DNA of 64,000 nt from Pseudomonadota bacterium (GTDB lineage Bacteria; Pseudomonadota; Gammaproteobacteria; Steroidobacterales; Steroidobacteraceae). Below the pieces are notes generated by a model, which was given only the letters and a program-made list of their open reading frames with translations, was not told the origin of the DNA and searched no databases. A program made the position numbers and the translations under genes. How positions within the stretch are numbered: position 1 is the first letter of the stretch; each line of letters starts with the position of its first letter. The DNA is taken from assembly GCA_021822385.1 (NCBI GenBank), contig JAKARC010000008.1, positions 1 to 64,000 on the forward strand, given 5' to 3'. This document shows positions 33,703 to 39,691 of the stretch, one piece after another.

Positions 33703-34062
33703 TCAGGACCTTGCGCTGAAGGACTCGCACCACCCTTCGGCATCGACGGAGTAGCCGGGATAGATCTGGCACGCCGCATAGCCCGATTTCTCTCCGGGTG
33801 TTCCCTTGAAGAAACGGCATATCGAACAGTGATCGCCGGGCTTGTACATCGGGTACTTCGCCGTACTGATCGTGTTGTGATTCGGCGTGTACGCGAGGGC
33901 CTTCGCCATCGCATCGCTATCGGACAGGTGCGGCAGATTCTCCCCTGCGGCGCGCGCCGCTCGGGGCTTCAGGCCACCGACAATCGTGGCCGCAACCGCC
34001 ACGGTGGCGCCCGCTAGGAAAGCACGCCGCGAAGGATCCGTCTTGCTCTTTGCTTCAGTCAT
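33703..34062 (-). CDS. hip: High-potential iron-sulfur protein (HiPIP)
   Basis: Small periplasmic [4Fe-4S] electron carrier, 119 residues. The N-terminus has a twin-arginine signal (SRRAFLAGATV). The mature part has the four cluster cysteines in the HiPIP spacing C-x2-C-x15-C-x13-C (HCSIC, AACQIYPG, EGWCESF). HiPIPs shuttle electrons from the bc1 complex or cytochromes to terminal oxidases or reaction centres. In A. ferrooxidans a hip gene belongs to the petII operon; here hip lies on the minus strand 112 bases downstream of an SDR gene and about 1.3 kb from petA. Its upstream is AT-rich compared with the surroundings (34063-34125) and may hold its own promoter. Confidence 0.93.
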   Translation of the reverse strand: MTEAKSKTDPSRRAFLAGATVAVAATIVGGLKPRAARAAGENLPHLSDSDAMAKALAYTPNHNTISTAKYPMYKPGDHCSICRFFKGTPGEKSGYAACQIYPGYSVDAEGWCESFSARS

Positions 34063-34174: not shown

Positions 34175-34975
34175 TCACCGCGGAACCTCCCGGCACTCGC
34201 GCGTGCGGCTCAACAGCAACGGGCTGAACCCACGCGCCTCCGGGCCGATCGCGTACAGGTAAGGACCGGTGACGCGCTGCGGCTCGGGGTGGGCATCCGG
34301 CGCCTCACCCGGATAGTGCTGACGCCGGCCCGGCGTGAGCACCGCGCCGGTGTCGATACCGAAGATGCGGACCGGATGGGCGCTGCCGGCACCGTATTCG
34401 TCCGCGAGCACGCCGACCAGCGCCCGCTGCCCGGCCTTCGCCAGGGCAAAGGCACCCCAGAACGCGCGATCCGATTCCTGCAGCGAAAACCCTACCACAG
34501 GGTCAGCCGCCTTGCGCAGCAACGGCATGCACCACTGCGTGAGGAAGAACGGCGCGGCGAGGTTGATATTCATCACCTTGGTCCAGGTGGCCGGTGGATA
34601 ATGCTCGAACGGCGCGAGCGCGCCGATCCAGCCGGCGTTGTTGAGCAGCCCGTCGAGTCGCCCGTAGCGCTCACCGATACGATCGGCAATCTCGCGCACC
34701 CCGCCAATGGTGATGCCCGCGAGATCGGCAGGACATAACACCGGCTCGGCATGGCCCTGCGCGACGATTTCCTCGGCGAGACTCTCGAGCCCGGCCCGAT
34801 CCCAGTCGAGCAGCACGAGCTCGGCGCCGTGACACGCATAGCGTACGGCCACCGCGTGACCGATGCCGTGGGCAGCGCCGGTAATCAAGATGACACGGTC
34901 CTTGAGCAGATCCGGGGATCCCTCGTAATCGAGCAAGCAATCGTAGGCCGGCGGCATATGTTCAGTTTGTTGCAT
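34175..34975 (-). CDS. Short-chain dehydrogenase family protein with Phe at the catalytic Tyr position
   Basis: A 266-residue Rossmann-fold SDR resembling YciK. It has ITGAAHGIGHAVAVRYA (TGxxxGIG) near residue 35, an acidic VLLDWD at the end of strand 2 (suggesting NAD preference), LLNNAGWIG near residue 119, and NINLAAPFFLTQ. The active site normally reads Y-x3-K; here it is GAFALAK, with Phe at residue 176 and Lys at 180 (codon TTT, complement of 34448-34450). The conserved Ser is present (VVGFS). Start chosen at 34975; MPPAYDC at 34957 is an alternative. Near bc1 genes, an SDR is reminiscent of sdrA in A. ferrooxidans pet operons. Confidence 0.83.
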   Translation of the reverse strand: MQQTEHMPPAYDCLLDYEGSPDLLKDRVILITGAAHGIGHAVAVRYACHGAELVLLDWDRAGLESLAEEIVAQGHAEPVLCPADLAGITIGGVREIADRIGERYGRLDGLLNNAGWIGALAPFEHYPPATWTKVMNINLAAPFFLTQWCMPLLRKAADPVVGFSLQESDRAFWGAFALAKAGQRALVGVLADEYGAGSAHPVRIFGIDTGAVLTPGRRQHYPGEAPDAHPEPQRVTGPYLYAIGPEARGFSPLLLSRTRECREVPR

Positions 34976-35407
34976 GGAGAGCGAGGAACATACTGCGATA
35001 AATACGTATGGTAACGCAGCCCTGCCGACGGATACCCTCCTGTCCGCGATGCGAAGACCAGGGAACGAGCAGTGGAGATGTGTTGGCACTTTGCGTATCA
35101 TCGCAGTCCGGAGCAGGCATCCGGCCGCAGCACGGCACCACGGGGCCCGTGCGAGCCGACCATCGGCAAGCATAAGCACACTGCATAAAGCGCGACGTTT
35201 CAGGTTTTCTCGGAACTTTGCGGCACTTCGCCGAGCCGCCTGCGGCGTCTGCGTGCCATTGCGCCGAACCGGAATGTACGTTCGCCGTGCGCCGCCGGCC
35301 GCTCACAAGCGCGGCACTCCGCCGGGCGGAGCGGGACGTGCAGGCCATTTTTTTACCTGGATGCCGATGAACCGCGGCAGACGGGTGGCAGTTTAAGAGC
35401 ACAAGCC
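34976..35407. other. Divergent intergenic region between SDR and petA
   Basis: 432 bases between two divergent operons; no protein or RNA gene seen. It should hold promoters for both directions. AT-rich patches occur at about 34987-35012 (ATACTGCGATAAATACGTAT region) and 35173-35220 (CATAAAGCG then TTTCAGGTTTTCTC). I could not assign confident -35/-10 boxes or an operator. Confidence 0.5.
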
Positions 35408-36088
35408 ATGAACAATGAAACGAGACACGCAGAGCAAGCCGTGGTCATGGATTCAGTCCGGCCAGAGCAGAATGCCGATAAGGGTCGTCGCAATTTCCTC
35501 ATCTCCGCCGCCGGGGTGCTCGGTGCCGGCGCCGTGGGCTTGTTCGCGGATGCTCTGATCGACAACATGAATCCCGGCAAGGCCGTTGAGGCGCTCGGCG
35601 CACCCATCGAGGTGGACGTGAGCCGGATGGAACCGGGACAACTGATTCTCACCGAATGGAAAAAAAAGCCGATCTGGATCCTCAAGCGCGAACCGTGGAT
35701 GTTGCAGGCACTCGCCGATCCGACGCTGCTCAGACGCCTGAAGGATCCCGACAGCCGGCAGGATCAGCAACCGGCCCCGCAGTTCATCAACGGCAATTAC
35801 CGCGCGTTGCGCCCCGAATACTTCATCGCGGTCGCACTGTGCACGCACATGCAGTGCATTCCGGCTTACCGACCGGCGCCGCACACCGTCACGCCGTGGT
35901 GGCCCGGCGGCTTTCACTGCCCGTGCCACGGCTCGCTCTATGACTTCTCCGCGCGGGTCTTCGAGGGATCGCCCGCGCCGCTCAACATACCAATACCGCC
36001 CTACTACTGGAAATCGGCCACTGTGGCGCGCATCGGCGAGATGAACGTACACGGCCTCGAGAAGGACTGGACACCGGACATCTGGTGA
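35408..36088 (+). CDS. petA: Ubiquinol-cytochrome c reductase, Rieske iron-sulfur subunit
   Basis: Membrane-anchored [2Fe-2S] subunit of the bc1 complex, 226 residues. A Tat-type signal anchor (GRRNFLISAAGVLGAG) is at residues 26-45. Cluster-binding loops are CTHMQC at residues 145-150 and CPCHGSLYD about 30 residues later. The usual first loop is CTHLGC, so Leu-Gly is replaced by Met-Gln. Ser and Tyr of the second loop, which raise the midpoint potential, are kept. The C-terminal GSPAPLNIPIPPYYW is typical. First gene of the pet operon; a frame upstream of 36145 overlaps its end but the cytochrome c start is placed later. Confidence 0.94.
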   Translation: MNNETRHAEQAVVMDSVRPEQNADKGRRNFLISAAGVLGAGAVGLFADALIDNMNPGKAVEALGAPIEVDVSRMEPGQLILTEWKKKPIWILKREPWMLQALADPTLLRRLKDPDSRQDQQPAPQFINGNYRALRPEYFIAVALCTHMQCIPAYRPAPHTVTPWWPGGFHCPCHGSLYDFSARVFEGSPAPLNIPIPPYYWKSATVARIGEMNVHGLEKDWTPDIW

Positions 36089-36144
36089 GCATCGAGCCTG
36101 CACTCCAGAGCACACCCCGGGGAACTACAGAGGACACAGCCGCA

Positions 36145-36909
36145 ATGAAATCCGCCTTGGCCGCACTCCTCACCGCCATTCTGACCATGCCGCTGGCGCT
36201 GGCGCATAGCGATTATCACGGTCTGCCACCGGCCGGCGCCGCCGCCAAAGGCGCGCCGCTCACCGCCGTCTGCTCCGCCTGTCATGGCAGCAACGGCATG
36301 GGCATGACCACACAATATCCCAATCTCGCCGGGCAGAAGTTCAACTACATCCTGAAGGAGCTCGAGAACTTCCGCAGCGGCGCCCGCACGAACAGCATCA
36401 TGAGTGCGATGGCGATGACGATCCCCCCATCGCCCCATAACGCGAACCTCAAAGATATCGCCGCCTATTTCGCCGCTCTTGCACCCATGTGGACGCAGGC
36501 GGCACAGCAGATCAGCACACCGGCCGATCCCGAGCAACTTGCCCTGGGCCAGCGCATCTACACGATCGGGATAGCCGGCAAACACATCCCCGCCTGCGCG
36601 GCCTGTCATGAATTGGGCGGCGAGGGCAATGGGCCGATGGCCATACCGGTGCTCGCCGGACAGCAGGCCGCCTACATGATCAAGCAACTCGAGCAATTCG
36701 CAAGCGGGGCCCGGCACAACGCACCTGGACACGTCATGCACATGATCGCCCGCTCCATGAACGCAAAGGACGAGGCGGCAGTCGCCGCCTATCTGCAGCA
36801 GCTGAACCCGGCGACCACACTCGGCATCGGCCCGAAGGATTTCGCATCCTATGCGCGTGCGCTGGCCGCACCGAGTGCCGGTGCCGGCGCAGCCACAGGC
36901 GCACACTGA
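36145..36909 (+). CDS. Dihaem cytochrome c (c4/CycA-like) inside the bc1 operon
   Basis: A 254-residue periplasmic protein with a signal peptide (MKSALAALLTAILTMPLALA). It has two haem c sites, CSACHGSNGMGM and CAACHELGGEGNGPMA, each followed about 60 residues on by a Met that can be axial ligand (for example SAMAM and HVMHM). Two similar halves of ~100 residues suit cytochrome c4. The ATG at 36145 is chosen over the GTG at 36085, which would add an unlikely 20-residue tail before the signal peptide. Position between petA and petB is unusual; c4 could take electrons directly from cytochrome c1. A. ferrooxidans cycA, a c4, is encoded with its pet genes. Confidence 0.88.
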   Translation: MKSALAALLTAILTMPLALAHSDYHGLPPAGAAAKGAPLTAVCSACHGSNGMGMTTQYPNLAGQKFNYILKELENFRSGARTNSIMSAMAMTIPPSPHNANLKDIAAYFAALAPMWTQAAQQISTPADPEQLALGQRIYTIGIAGKHIPACAACHELGGEGNGPMAIPVLAGQQAAYMIKQLEQFASGARHNAPGHVMHMIARSMNAKDEAAVAAYLQQLNPATTLGIGPKDFASYARALAAPSAGAGAATGAH

Positions 36910-36995: not shown

Positions 36996-38429
36996 ATGAA
37001 TAGCAATACTCGATCATGGGCGCGCAGCGTTTTCGGCTGGTTCGACTCGCGGCTGCCGATATCCGCCATGTGGCGCAGCCAGGTAAGCGAATATCCGGCA
37101 CCGAAGAACTTCAACATCTGGTACATCTTCGGCTCACTGGCGCTGCTCGTGCTGGTCATGCAGCTCGCCACCGGGCTGTTTCTTGCCATTCACTATCAAC
37201 CCAATCCGCATCTGGCGTACTGGTCGGTCCTGCGCGGCATCCAGCAGGACTCGCGTTGGGGCTGGCTGATTCGCGACATGCACATCGTCGGCGCATCCGC
37301 CTTCTTTGTGCTGGTCTACCTGCACATGTACCGGGGCATCATGTACGGCTCGTACAAGAACCCCCGTGAACTGCTCTGGCTGGTCGGCATTTTCATCTAC
37401 CTCGCCCTCTCCGCCGAGGCATTTCTCGGCTATCTGCTGCCCTGGGGACAGATGTCCTACTGGGGATCCGCCGTGGTGACCAATTTCGTCACTGCGGTTC
37501 CCGTCATCGGCAAGCCGATCGCCACCTGGCTGCGCGGATCGTTCGTGGTTGGGCTGCCGACCCTCAATCGTTTCTTCGTCTTTCACGTGTTCCTGATGCC
37601 CCTGCTGCTGCTCGCTCTCGTCCTGGTACATCTGATCGCATTGCATCACGTCGGCTCCAACAACCCCGATGGCCTCGAGATCCACGACAACGTCAATGAA
37701 AGCGCCTGGCCGCGCGACGCGGTGCCGTTCCACCCGTACTACACGGTGAAGGACCTGTTCGCCGTGAGCGTGTTCTTCGTGATCTTCTTCTGGTTCGTGT
37801 TCTACAACCCGAGCGGCTGGGGATTTCTGCTCGACAAGCTGAACTATACCCCCGCGAACATCCTGCACACCCCGGCCGACATCCATCCGCTGTGGTTTTT
37901 CCTGCCCTTTTACGCCATGTTGCGTGGCGTTCCCAATAAGCTATACGGCATCATGGCGTTCGCCGGCTCGTTTGTCCTGCTCGCCTGCTTGCCGCTGCTC
38001 GACCGCAACCCGATCCGCTCGATCCGTTATCGCTCGGTCCTCTACAAGCTCAACATCCTGTGCATGGCGTTCTCGTTCATCTGGCTTGGACTGATTGCGC
38101 ACGGGCTCGCGACCGAGCACAACATGGTGTACGGCCTGCACGTCACCGAGGTCTTTTACCTGACCTTCCTCGCGCTGCCGTTCTTCAACCGCACCCGCTC
38201 GCTGCGCGCGAAGTACATCTGGTTGATCGCAGCGGAAGGTGTGGTCTGGCTGATCGACGTGTGGATGTATTCCATTCACGCGCACAGCTGGCATCTGATG
38301 TTGCTCACCGACTGGATTCCGGCGCTGTATGTGCTGCTGCTATTCGGACTTGCGATCATCTTCCCGGCCCTGACGCGGGATGCCCCCAAGCTCCCGGCGC
38401 GCCTCACCGCCGGCGGCATCTTTCACTGA
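36996..38429 (+). CDS. petB: Cytochrome b subunit of the bc1 complex
   Basis: A 477-residue integral membrane protein with about eight to nine helices. Haem ligand pairs are visible: MHIVGASAFFVLVYLHMYRG (His spaced by 14) and FHVFLMPLLLLALVLVH (His spaced by 15). The Qo site motif normally PEWY reads PLWF (residues 298-301, bases 37887-37898) within ADIHPLWFFLPFYAMLRG, so the catalytically important Glu and Tyr are both replaced. The first helix region (YIFGSLALLVLVMQLATG) and the C-terminal helices are standard. Length is somewhat above the usual 400-440. It follows the cytochrome c gene by 86 bases. Confidence 0.94.
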   Translation: MNSNTRSWARSVFGWFDSRLPISAMWRSQVSEYPAPKNFNIWYIFGSLALLVLVMQLATGLFLAIHYQPNPHLAYWSVLRGIQQDSRWGWLIRDMHIVGASAFFVLVYLHMYRGIMYGSYKNPRELLWLVGIFIYLALSAEAFLGYLLPWGQMSYWGSAVVTNFVTAVPVIGKPIATWLRGSFVVGLPTLNRFFVFHVFLMPLLLLALVLVHLIALHHVGSNNPDGLEIHDNVNESAWPRDAVPFHPYYTVKDLFAVSVFFVIFFWFVFYNPSGWGFLLDKLNYTPANILHTPADIHPLWFFLPFYAMLRGVPNKLYGIMAFAGSFVLLACLPLLDRNPIRSIRYRSVLYKLNILCMAFSFIWLGLIAHGLATEHNMVYGLHVTEVFYLTFLALPFFNRTRSLRAKYIWLIAAEGVVWLIDVWMYSIHAHSWHLMLLTDWIPALYVLLLFGLAIIFPALTRDAPKLPARLTAGGIFH

Positions 38430-38513
38430 GAACGGACCGGGAGTGCCCCCATGCGCATCGCGGCGTGTAACACGGATCGAAACTCACCCAGCCCACTCGT
38501 GCAGGACCAAGCG

Positions 38514-39329
38514 ATGAGGAAAAAACCTTCTCGGCCTCACAGCCGCTCACTGGCGTCGGTATTGACTGCCGGAGTGCTGCTGCTCGCCAGCAGCTGCGCC
38601 TGGGCTTCGGTTGCGACGACGCAACCGCCGTTGCAGCCAATCACGATCAATCTGCAGAACAAAGCTGCGCTGCGCAATGGCGCTCTGTATACGCTGCACA
38701 TGTGTACGGCCTGCCATTCCCTGCAAGGCATGCGCTACAGTTCGCTGCCGCCGATTCTCGGTCTGAGCAAGCATAGATTCAAGACGATCATCGGCACCAA
38801 CGATCGGCATTATCACGACATCATCACCTCGAACATGCCGCCGTCGGTGATCTATGCGTTTACGAAGATTCTACCGCCGGATCTAACCTATATCGCGCGA
38901 CGCCATTCTCCGGCGTGGCTTTACACCTATTTGACCTCATTTTATGTGGATCCGACGCAACCCACCGGTACAAACAATGTCGTGTTCCATAACGTTGCCA
39001 TGCCCGATGTCTTCGCGCCGCTGCAGGGGCTGCAGAAGCCGATCCTGATCGAGGGTCTGCGCTATGGCAGTCCCGCCAAGATTGCCATTGGTGTCAGGCC
39101 ACTCACTCGCGGCAGCATGACGCCGGCGCAGTTCGACCGGACCGCGCGCGACATCGTGACGTTTTTATACGCCGTCGCGCATTCCCACCAGCAGGAACGC
39201 TTCCGCTTAGGACCCTGGATCATCGCGCTATTCCTTACGCTATCTGTCCTGACTTATCTGTTGTACAAGCTCTACTGGCGGCGGGTCATGACCAGCGAGG
39301 AACGATGGTGGAAAATCAACAAACAATGA
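38514..39329 (+). CDS. petC: Cytochrome c1 of the bc1 complex
   Basis: A 271-residue protein with an N-terminal signal peptide (residues ~11-32), a single haem c site MCTACHSL near residue 64, ILPPDLTYIARR and DPTQPTGTNNVVF typical of cytochrome c1. A C-terminal membrane anchor (IIALFLTLSVLTYLLYKLYW) ends in a positive tail. The ATG at 38514 is used because AGGA lies 8 bases before it and the signal peptide starts there; the frame is open from 38451. A candidate axial Met occurs in RGSMTPAQFD. Its 3' end overlaps the next gene by 25 bases. Confidence 0.93.
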   Translation: MRKKPSRPHSRSLASVLTAGVLLLASSCAWASVATTQPPLQPITINLQNKAALRNGALYTLHMCTACHSLQGMRYSSLPPILGLSKHRFKTIIGTNDRHYHDIITSNMPPSVIYAFTKILPPDLTYIARRHSPAWLYTYLTSFYVDPTQPTGTNNVVFHNVAMPDVFAPLQGLQKPILIEGLRYGSPAKIAIGVRPLTRGSMTPAQFDRTARDIVTFLYAVAHSHQQERFRLGPWIIALFLTLSVLTYLLYKLYWRRVMTSEERWWKINKQ

Positions 39330-39691
39330 CACTCCGCGAGGCGGCGGTAGCGCACGACGCAGCGCCCGCCCGGCAAGCCGATGCGGACCTACGGCGCACA
39401 TGGAAAGCCTATATCGCGCTCGGTCTCGGCGCGGTGCTCTTCATCTTCACGATCTGGTACGAGGTCTATGGCGATACGCGCAAGGACGCGGCGGCGTGGC
39501 GCGATCCGCTCCTGCAAAGTCATCGTCAATGGCGCCTGCGCACGGCGTTCGTGTTTCTCGTGTGGTCGATTCTCGCCGGATTCTGCGTGCCGTTCGGGTT
39601 CGGCATGCTCGTGTTCGTTCCGGTCTGGATCTGGTTCGTCTATCGGGTGGCCCGCGGCATGATTCTCCTCGGGATGCGCCGGGTGGCGTAA
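39305..39691 (+). CDS. Small membrane protein at the end of the bc1 operon, unknown
   Basis: A 128-residue protein with a hydrophilic N-terminus (~38 residues) and three hydrophobic segments: KAYIALGLGAVLFIFTIWYE, TAFVFLVWSILAGF, and GFGMLVFVPVWIWFVYRVARG. I do not recognise it as a known bc1 accessory subunit. Its start overlaps petC by 25 bases in another frame, so it is probably translated with petC. The position suggests a small subunit or assembly factor; a mere downstream passenger gene is equally possible. The C-terminus resembles small DUF4870-like two-helix proteins loosely. Confidence 0.65.
   Translation: MVENQQTMTLREAAVAHDAAPARQADADLRRTWKAYIALGLGAVLFIFTIWYEVYGDTRKDAAAWRDPLLQSHRQWRLRTAFVFLVWSILAGFCVPFGFGMLVFVPVWIWFVYRVARGMILLGMRRVA

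Follow-up and report, generated by a model that had tools for sequence, protein, structure and literature searches.

The analyzed window, a 64,000-nucleotide stretch of a contig from a member of the Steroidobacteraceae, contains an intact pet operon in which the cytochrome b gene (petB) is accompanied by genes encoding a Rieske iron-sulfur protein (petA) and cytochrome c1 (petC). Both scored above the cut-offs of their models (TIGR01416 and PF02167, respectively), which identifies the product as a cytochrome bc1 complex (Table 1). Homologs (33–82% identity) of the 128-aa protein encoded behind petC occur at the same place in many relatives, and the protein is possibly an extra bc1 subunit or an assembly factor. 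The short-chain dehydrogenase gene, whose true start probably lies inside the ORF given in Table 1, and hip are oriented divergently from petA. In gene content the locus matches the pet complement of Acidithiobacillus ferrooxidans, whose petI and petII operons, according to PMC2754497, comprise sdrA and the genes for a c4-type cytochrome, the Rieske protein, cytochrome b, cytochrome c1 and (petII) hip. The petI order (cycA-sdrA-petA-petB-petC) is, however, not matched, as the sdr and hip genes of the window are divergent and the cyc gene is placed between petA and petB. A further sdr-petABC cluster, with the Qo motif PPWY, was found in genome G352 (locus L142, G352:C71), on another contig than its rusticyanin gene; among the 369 sampled genomes of the class, no other had rusticyanin above the cut-off.

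Table 1. Genes of the pet locus and Qo-site residues of its cytochrome b (positions within the window).
Feature	Position	Strand	Evidence or remark
hip	33703..34062	-	PF01355 above cut-off
Short-chain dehydrogenase, sdrA place, divergent from petA	34175..35179	-	PF00106 above cut-off; next to pet genes in numerous related loci
petA, Rieske iron-sulfur protein with intact CTHxxC and CPCHGSxYD boxes	35408..36088	+	TIGR01416 above cut-off; 8smr_C match; PF00355 not among Pfam matches
Diheme c-type cytochrome, cytochrome c4-like, cycA place	36085..36909	+	PF00034 above cut-off in two stretches; no NCBIfam model at cut-off
petB, cytochrome b of bc1 complex, 477 aa, C-terminal extension	36996..38429	+	PF00033 and PF00032 above cut-off; best solved relative chain 8smr_I
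Y146 (Rhodobacter Y147), proton relay retained	37431..37433	+	Tyr in 61/61 non-Rhodobacter rows
D280, ef-loop acid at Rhodobacter H276 place; candidate proton acceptor	37833..37835	+	D or E in 61/61 non-Rhodobacter rows
L282 at Rhodobacter D278 place, acid lost	37839..37841	+	0/17 PLWF rows acidic
PLWF replacing PEWY (P298 L299 W300 F301)	37887..37898	+	CCG CTG TGG TTT; aligned to Rhodobacter
Y306 (Rhodobacter Y302), kept	37911..37913	+	Tyr in 17/17 PLWF rows
petC, cytochrome c1	38451..39329	+	PF02167 above cut-off; 8smr_J match
128-aa ORF, no Pfam or NCBIfam match	39305..39691	+	conserved behind petC in this operon type

The cytochrome b, whose ORF includes the segment TPADIHPLWFFLPFYAMLRG, scored 210.5 bits with PF00033 and 97.1 bits with PF00032. 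It has the four haem-ligand histidines (H96, H110, H197 and H212) and the Qi-site pair H217/D252 (H217 and D253 of the window protein). The sequence around its Qo motif, DIHPLWFFLPFY, bears out the reading of the earlier note that PLWF stands in place of PEWY: in the alignment with Rhodobacter cytochrome b (chain 2qjk_A), P294 and W296 are matched, Leu replaces E295 and Phe replaces Y297. The Tyr of PEWY is Y297 (yeast Y274) and not Y302, which is retained. PVWY-type Qo sites are typical of beta- and gammaproteobacteria. The window protein is of neither the PEWY type (Glu at 295 and Tyr at 297) nor the PVWY type (an aliphatic residue at 295 and Tyr at 297), since it has the aliphatic residue and lacks the Tyr. 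Kao and Hunte are said to have described, in 2014, PPWF cytochromes b in Archaea and special patterns in acidophiles; in archaeal PPWF the motif Glu and Tyr are both replaced and Phe stands fourth, as in PLWF, but Pro is found where the window protein has Leu.

The best solved match to the cytochrome b, the Rieske protein and cytochrome c1 alike was entry 8smr, the bc1 complex of Pseudomonas aeruginosa. It resembles the window complex in lacking the motif Glu (PVWY), in having an ef-loop acid (Glu) at 276 and in the absence of Asp at 278 (Rhodobacter numbering, here and below for the pocket). It differs in keeping Y297, which is Phe in the window protein; the latter also has Leu where 8smr has Val, Asp as its 276 acid and an extended C terminus. 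With the PEWY enzyme of Rhodobacter the window protein shares the haem ligands, R94, Y147, M154, N279, Y302 and K251/D252, and it differs at E295, Y297, H276 and D278, which are replaced by L, F, D and L, respectively. An AlphaFold model of the protein (mean pLDDT 63) was too poor around the Qo site, with values below 50 at residues 270–301. The C-terminal extension (38199-38375; residues ~402–460) was predicted to form extra helices and, unlike the N-terminal two thirds, as a block with pLDDT of 84–95. Matches about as long were obtained in several other families, and the proteins of family f47, like 8smr, are without the extension.

The PLWF motif is not peculiar to one assembly. The stretch HPLWFFLPFY is carried by 15 genomes among the 148 searched (that of the window plus relatives), all within the window's genus (58 genomes), and the synonymous codons differ between them. 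The same 15 genomes encode cytochromes b at least 85% identical to that of the window, and all 15 loci read PLWF. Purifying selection acts on petB, for which dN/dS against nine relatives was 0.06–0.22. Because of these 15 genomes with differing synonymous codons and the low dN/dS, PLWF is regarded as a conserved, selected feature. A sequencing error or a decaying pseudogene, for which no observation speaks, is refuted for practical purposes by the 15 genomes, the intact reading frame and operon, and the dN/dS values.

The frequency of the motif was determined in the 369 sampled genomes of the class with patterns that fix the surrounding context, so that cytochromes b in other contexts, such as that of G502, are missed by both. 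PxWY in the same context was present in 239 of the 369 genomes, and the 150 PxWY matches listed comprise 86 PVWY, 49 PLWY, 12 PEWY, 2 PSWY and 1 PPWY. The PxWF pattern gave eight matches, seven of them genuine PLWF cytochromes b; the eighth, in a 78-aa ORF (G377:C5), was dismissed as a chance match once its reading was inspected. The seven PLWF genomes span five families: (i) f1 (the window), (ii) f47 (G178 and G322), (iii) f133 (G264 and G475), (iv) f142 (G386) and (v) f166 (G408). All seven have Leu, and PVWF, which the pattern permits, was not among its matches. In the named collection, a stricter pattern (PxDIHPLW[FY][FL]) gave 43 stretches, of which 40 were cytochrome b or part of one (26 PLWF, 14 PLWY) and three gave no cytochrome b reading. 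The absence of Glu is the usual state in this class. PEWY is therefore the wrong yardstick, and the rare step is that from Tyr to Phe. The earlier note had called the loss of both Glu and Tyr unusual, which holds for the double loss (seven of the 369 genomes); the loss of Glu on its own is ordinary, as the small share of PEWY among the PxWY matches listed shows. Nor did PLWF prove common across ordinary gammaproteobacteria, which the same note had named as the outcome that would speak against its view.

On a careful tree of 62 cytochromes b (58 chosen rows and four added; L142 and L143 filtered out), the distribution of PLWF requires four changes, the number forced by the starred branches (bootstrap range 4–4). 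Most simply, these are three gains (one in the window's clade, which includes G386 and G408, and one each in families f133 and f47) and one return to PLWY, shared by the Ideonella-named L101 and the Burkholderiaceae-named L065; the four changes can also be divided otherwise into gains and losses. A quick tree without f47, for which 88 of 119 rows were used after fragments had been dropped and near-copies merged, gave three changes. In f133 the sisters of the PLWF rows are PLWY. In f47 either of the two changes may have come first, since the one other member read (G428) is PVWY. The closest sister pairs differ at the motif on a common background, namely PLWF and PLWY within f133, and PLWF against L101/L065 within one operon type. 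L101 and L065 have the operon type of the window and 66% cytochrome b identity, and they are nested, with PLWY, among PLWF rows, for which a return to Tyr is likely.

Further cytochromes b were sought genome by genome. A second PF00032 match was found in eight of the 15 PLWF genomes of the genus (G003, G022, G023, G025, G028, G029, G041 and G048), and in all eight it reads PVWY, so the main forward enzyme there could be the other copy. G037 has just an N-terminal piece of a second cytochrome b, and none was found in G000, G004, G007, G008, G017 (90% complete) and G056 (96% complete). Outside the genus, the PLWF protein was the only cytochrome b found in G264 (96%) and G475 (94%) of f133 by PF00032 search and in G178 (100% complete) and G322 (99%) of f47 by protein search; G386 and G408 have further copies. 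In any of the genomes with a single copy, within or outside the genus, incomplete assembly may hide a second one. PMC12199298 cites Hunte and colleagues for the rule that extra cytochrome b sequences are always present where position 297 is Phe. The sole PLWF cytochrome b of several near-complete genomes goes against this rule.

The residues of the Qo pocket were compared in an alignment of 17 PLWF, 20 PLWY and 24 PVWY rows (61 non-Rhodobacter rows) with Rhodobacter. All 17 PLWF rows have L at 295 and F at 297, and all keep the haem ligands, R94, Y147, M154, N279, Y302, K251 and D252. At position 276, 15 of them have D and two have E. The search for a replacement proton acceptor peculiar to PLWF ended in rejection of this candidate: position 276 is acidic in all 44 PLWY and PVWY rows as well (E in 24/24 PVWY rows), so the acid is a wider feature and not a compensation in PLWF. 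Asp at 278, replaced in the PLWF rows, is present in 9/20 PLWY rows and 1/24 PVWY rows. In the window's clade as well as in f133, ten alignment columns change along with Y297F; besides 297, those near the pocket by number are 149 and 273, neither of which gains an acid or a Tyr.

The exit of the second proton from the Qo site is still debated, and models name E295, Y297, H276/D278, Y147 and the haem bL propionate. PMC11898062 describes proton wires that lead to the haem bL propionate, wire B by way of Y147 and E295, wire C through Y147 and Y297, and wire D through Y147 and three waters, as well as wire E (Y147, E295, H276), which leads to D278; wires B, C and D are given there as energetically similar and Y147 as necessary, and mutants changed at E295 or Y297 alone are reported to function. 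According to PMC10583091, E295V and H276F are each functional and the double mutant H276F/E295V is nonfunctional. An analysis from 2025 of 9993 sequences, chosen by similarity to R. sphaeroides, is reported in PMC12199298 to contain no double substitution among Y147, E295 and Y297, and simulations in PMC12199298 showed no contact between H276 and the quinol, whether direct or bridged by water. The E295L/Y297F change of PLWF is such a double substitution. Because the 9993 sequences were picked by likeness to R. sphaeroides, and because archaeal PPWF is said to have been listed by Kao and Hunte, double substitutions in general may already have been known. In the CC-licensed papers searched, none mentions PLWF and 'cytochrome b' together.

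The window protein looks like part of a working bc1 complex, because petB is under purifying selection and the haem ligands, Y147 and Y302 are intact. The PLWF cytochrome b represents a rare, repeatedly evolved, proton-poor Qo site in an apparently intact bc1 complex. Judged from the residues, their conservation and repeated origin, the purifying selection and the intact operon, the best explanation, which we consider probable, is a functional bc1 complex with a Qo site minus E295, D278 and Y297, which most likely runs a normal Q cycle and passes the second proton by Y147 and water. These three are among the side chains to which proton release is assigned in Rhodobacter; Leu has replaced E295, a change common to many gammaproteobacteria, and D278, whereas the Phe in place of Y297 is unusual. 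One quinol proton would go to the Rieske histidine and the other would reach the haem bL propionate by way of Y147 and of ordered water molecules, with the ef-loop acid at 276 (D280) perhaps assisting proton exit. By inference, PLWF enzymes would be without wires B, C and E, and wire D, perhaps with the 276 acid, would be left; Y297F may be tolerated owing to redundancy of the proton route. A large part for the 276 acid is disfavored by the simulations of PMC12199298, which show no contact of H276 with the quinol.

We lean, with some reserve, towards the broader proposal that a natural bc1 family of several origins may run the Q cycle without the motif Glu, the motif Tyr and D278, in some genomes as the sole bc1 complex found. 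If true, this would contradict both the absence of doubles among Y147, E295 and Y297 and the rule linking Phe-297 to extra cytochromes b, both as reported in PMC12199298, and the redundancy of the Qo proton wires would become testable on natural enzymes. The enzyme is stripped to Y147 and one ef-loop acid; with normal turnover, E295 and Y297 would be jointly dispensable, and water and Y147 may suffice. As related bacteria acquired this double change on several occasions, the enzyme may need fewer proton relays than current models draw.

Why Tyr gave way to Phe can be explained in several ways. One possibility, which we hold only tentatively, is near-neutral drift: once E295 had been replaced, Y297F would matter little on account of the redundant wires and would occasionally be fixed without benefit. 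The several origins of PLWF with one likely return to Tyr, the Leu at 295 in every PLWF row, the PLWY sisters in f133 and the reported function of single E295 or Y297 mutants (PMC11898062) are consistent with this, but PLWF is rare overall and within the window's clade persists in 26 of 28 rows (88-row tree) while nearby synonymous codons change, and the PVWY of G428 leaves room for either order of the two changes in f47.

Adaptation to an acidic periplasm, in which fewer ionisable pocket groups would be needed or wanted and Glu and Tyr would give way to Leu and Phe, appears rather unlikely. The archaeal PPWF and the special patterns in acidophiles, both attributed to Kao and Hunte, point in its direction. 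So do names of the site.bin style on 21 of the 26 PLWF loci of the named census, in which DBS, TL and MAS stand for sites in a survey of acid-mine sediments (PMC12153355) and the remaining codes are assigned to the acid-mine style by inference from the name format. Such names are, however, also borne by six of the 14 PLWY loci of the same census, the eight genomes with second copies have PVWY there, PLWF arose also in another family, f47 (loci of 39–41% GC), and G352, with rusticyanin over the cut-off, has PPWY. The association of PLWF with acid sites is thus plausible but loose, and the acid tuning suggested by the earlier note keeps the names of most named carriers in its favor and is weakened by the PLWY loci, the PVWY copies and f47. 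The causes which that note proposed, acid tuning and reversed operation, are neither needed nor excluded by the data.

Specialization for reversed (uphill) flow from cytochrome c to quinone, as in the petI bc1 complex of A. ferrooxidans, would, on the sequence data, be an improbable cause. The shared gene complement of the pet operons (PMC2754497) agrees with it, but in several near-complete genomes no cytochrome b other than the PLWF protein was found, and forward quinol oxidation would be expected there. Matches to the RuBisCO family model, which also matches genomes with RuBisCO-like proteins, were found in 11 of the 15 PLWF genomes of the genus but also in 25 of its 43 other genomes; being only somewhat commoner, they show no clear link, and autotrophy was rejected as the context of PLWF. 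Iron oxidation by rusticyanin was likewise set aside, as rusticyanin was found in 0/15 PLWF genomes of the genus and its weak matches were confined to two of the 58 genomes, neither of them PLWF. The window's genome, which is 85% complete, yielded neither a RuBisCO nor a rusticyanin match. G408, a PLWF genome of another family, does have genes resembling rusticyanin (best E 1e-39, short of the cut-off), which would fit reversed flow. At locus L147 of the same genome (G408:C3:222000-241000), a further cytochrome b, split into two pieces and accompanied by Rieske and c1 matches, lies ~4–6 kb from a rusticyanin-like gene.
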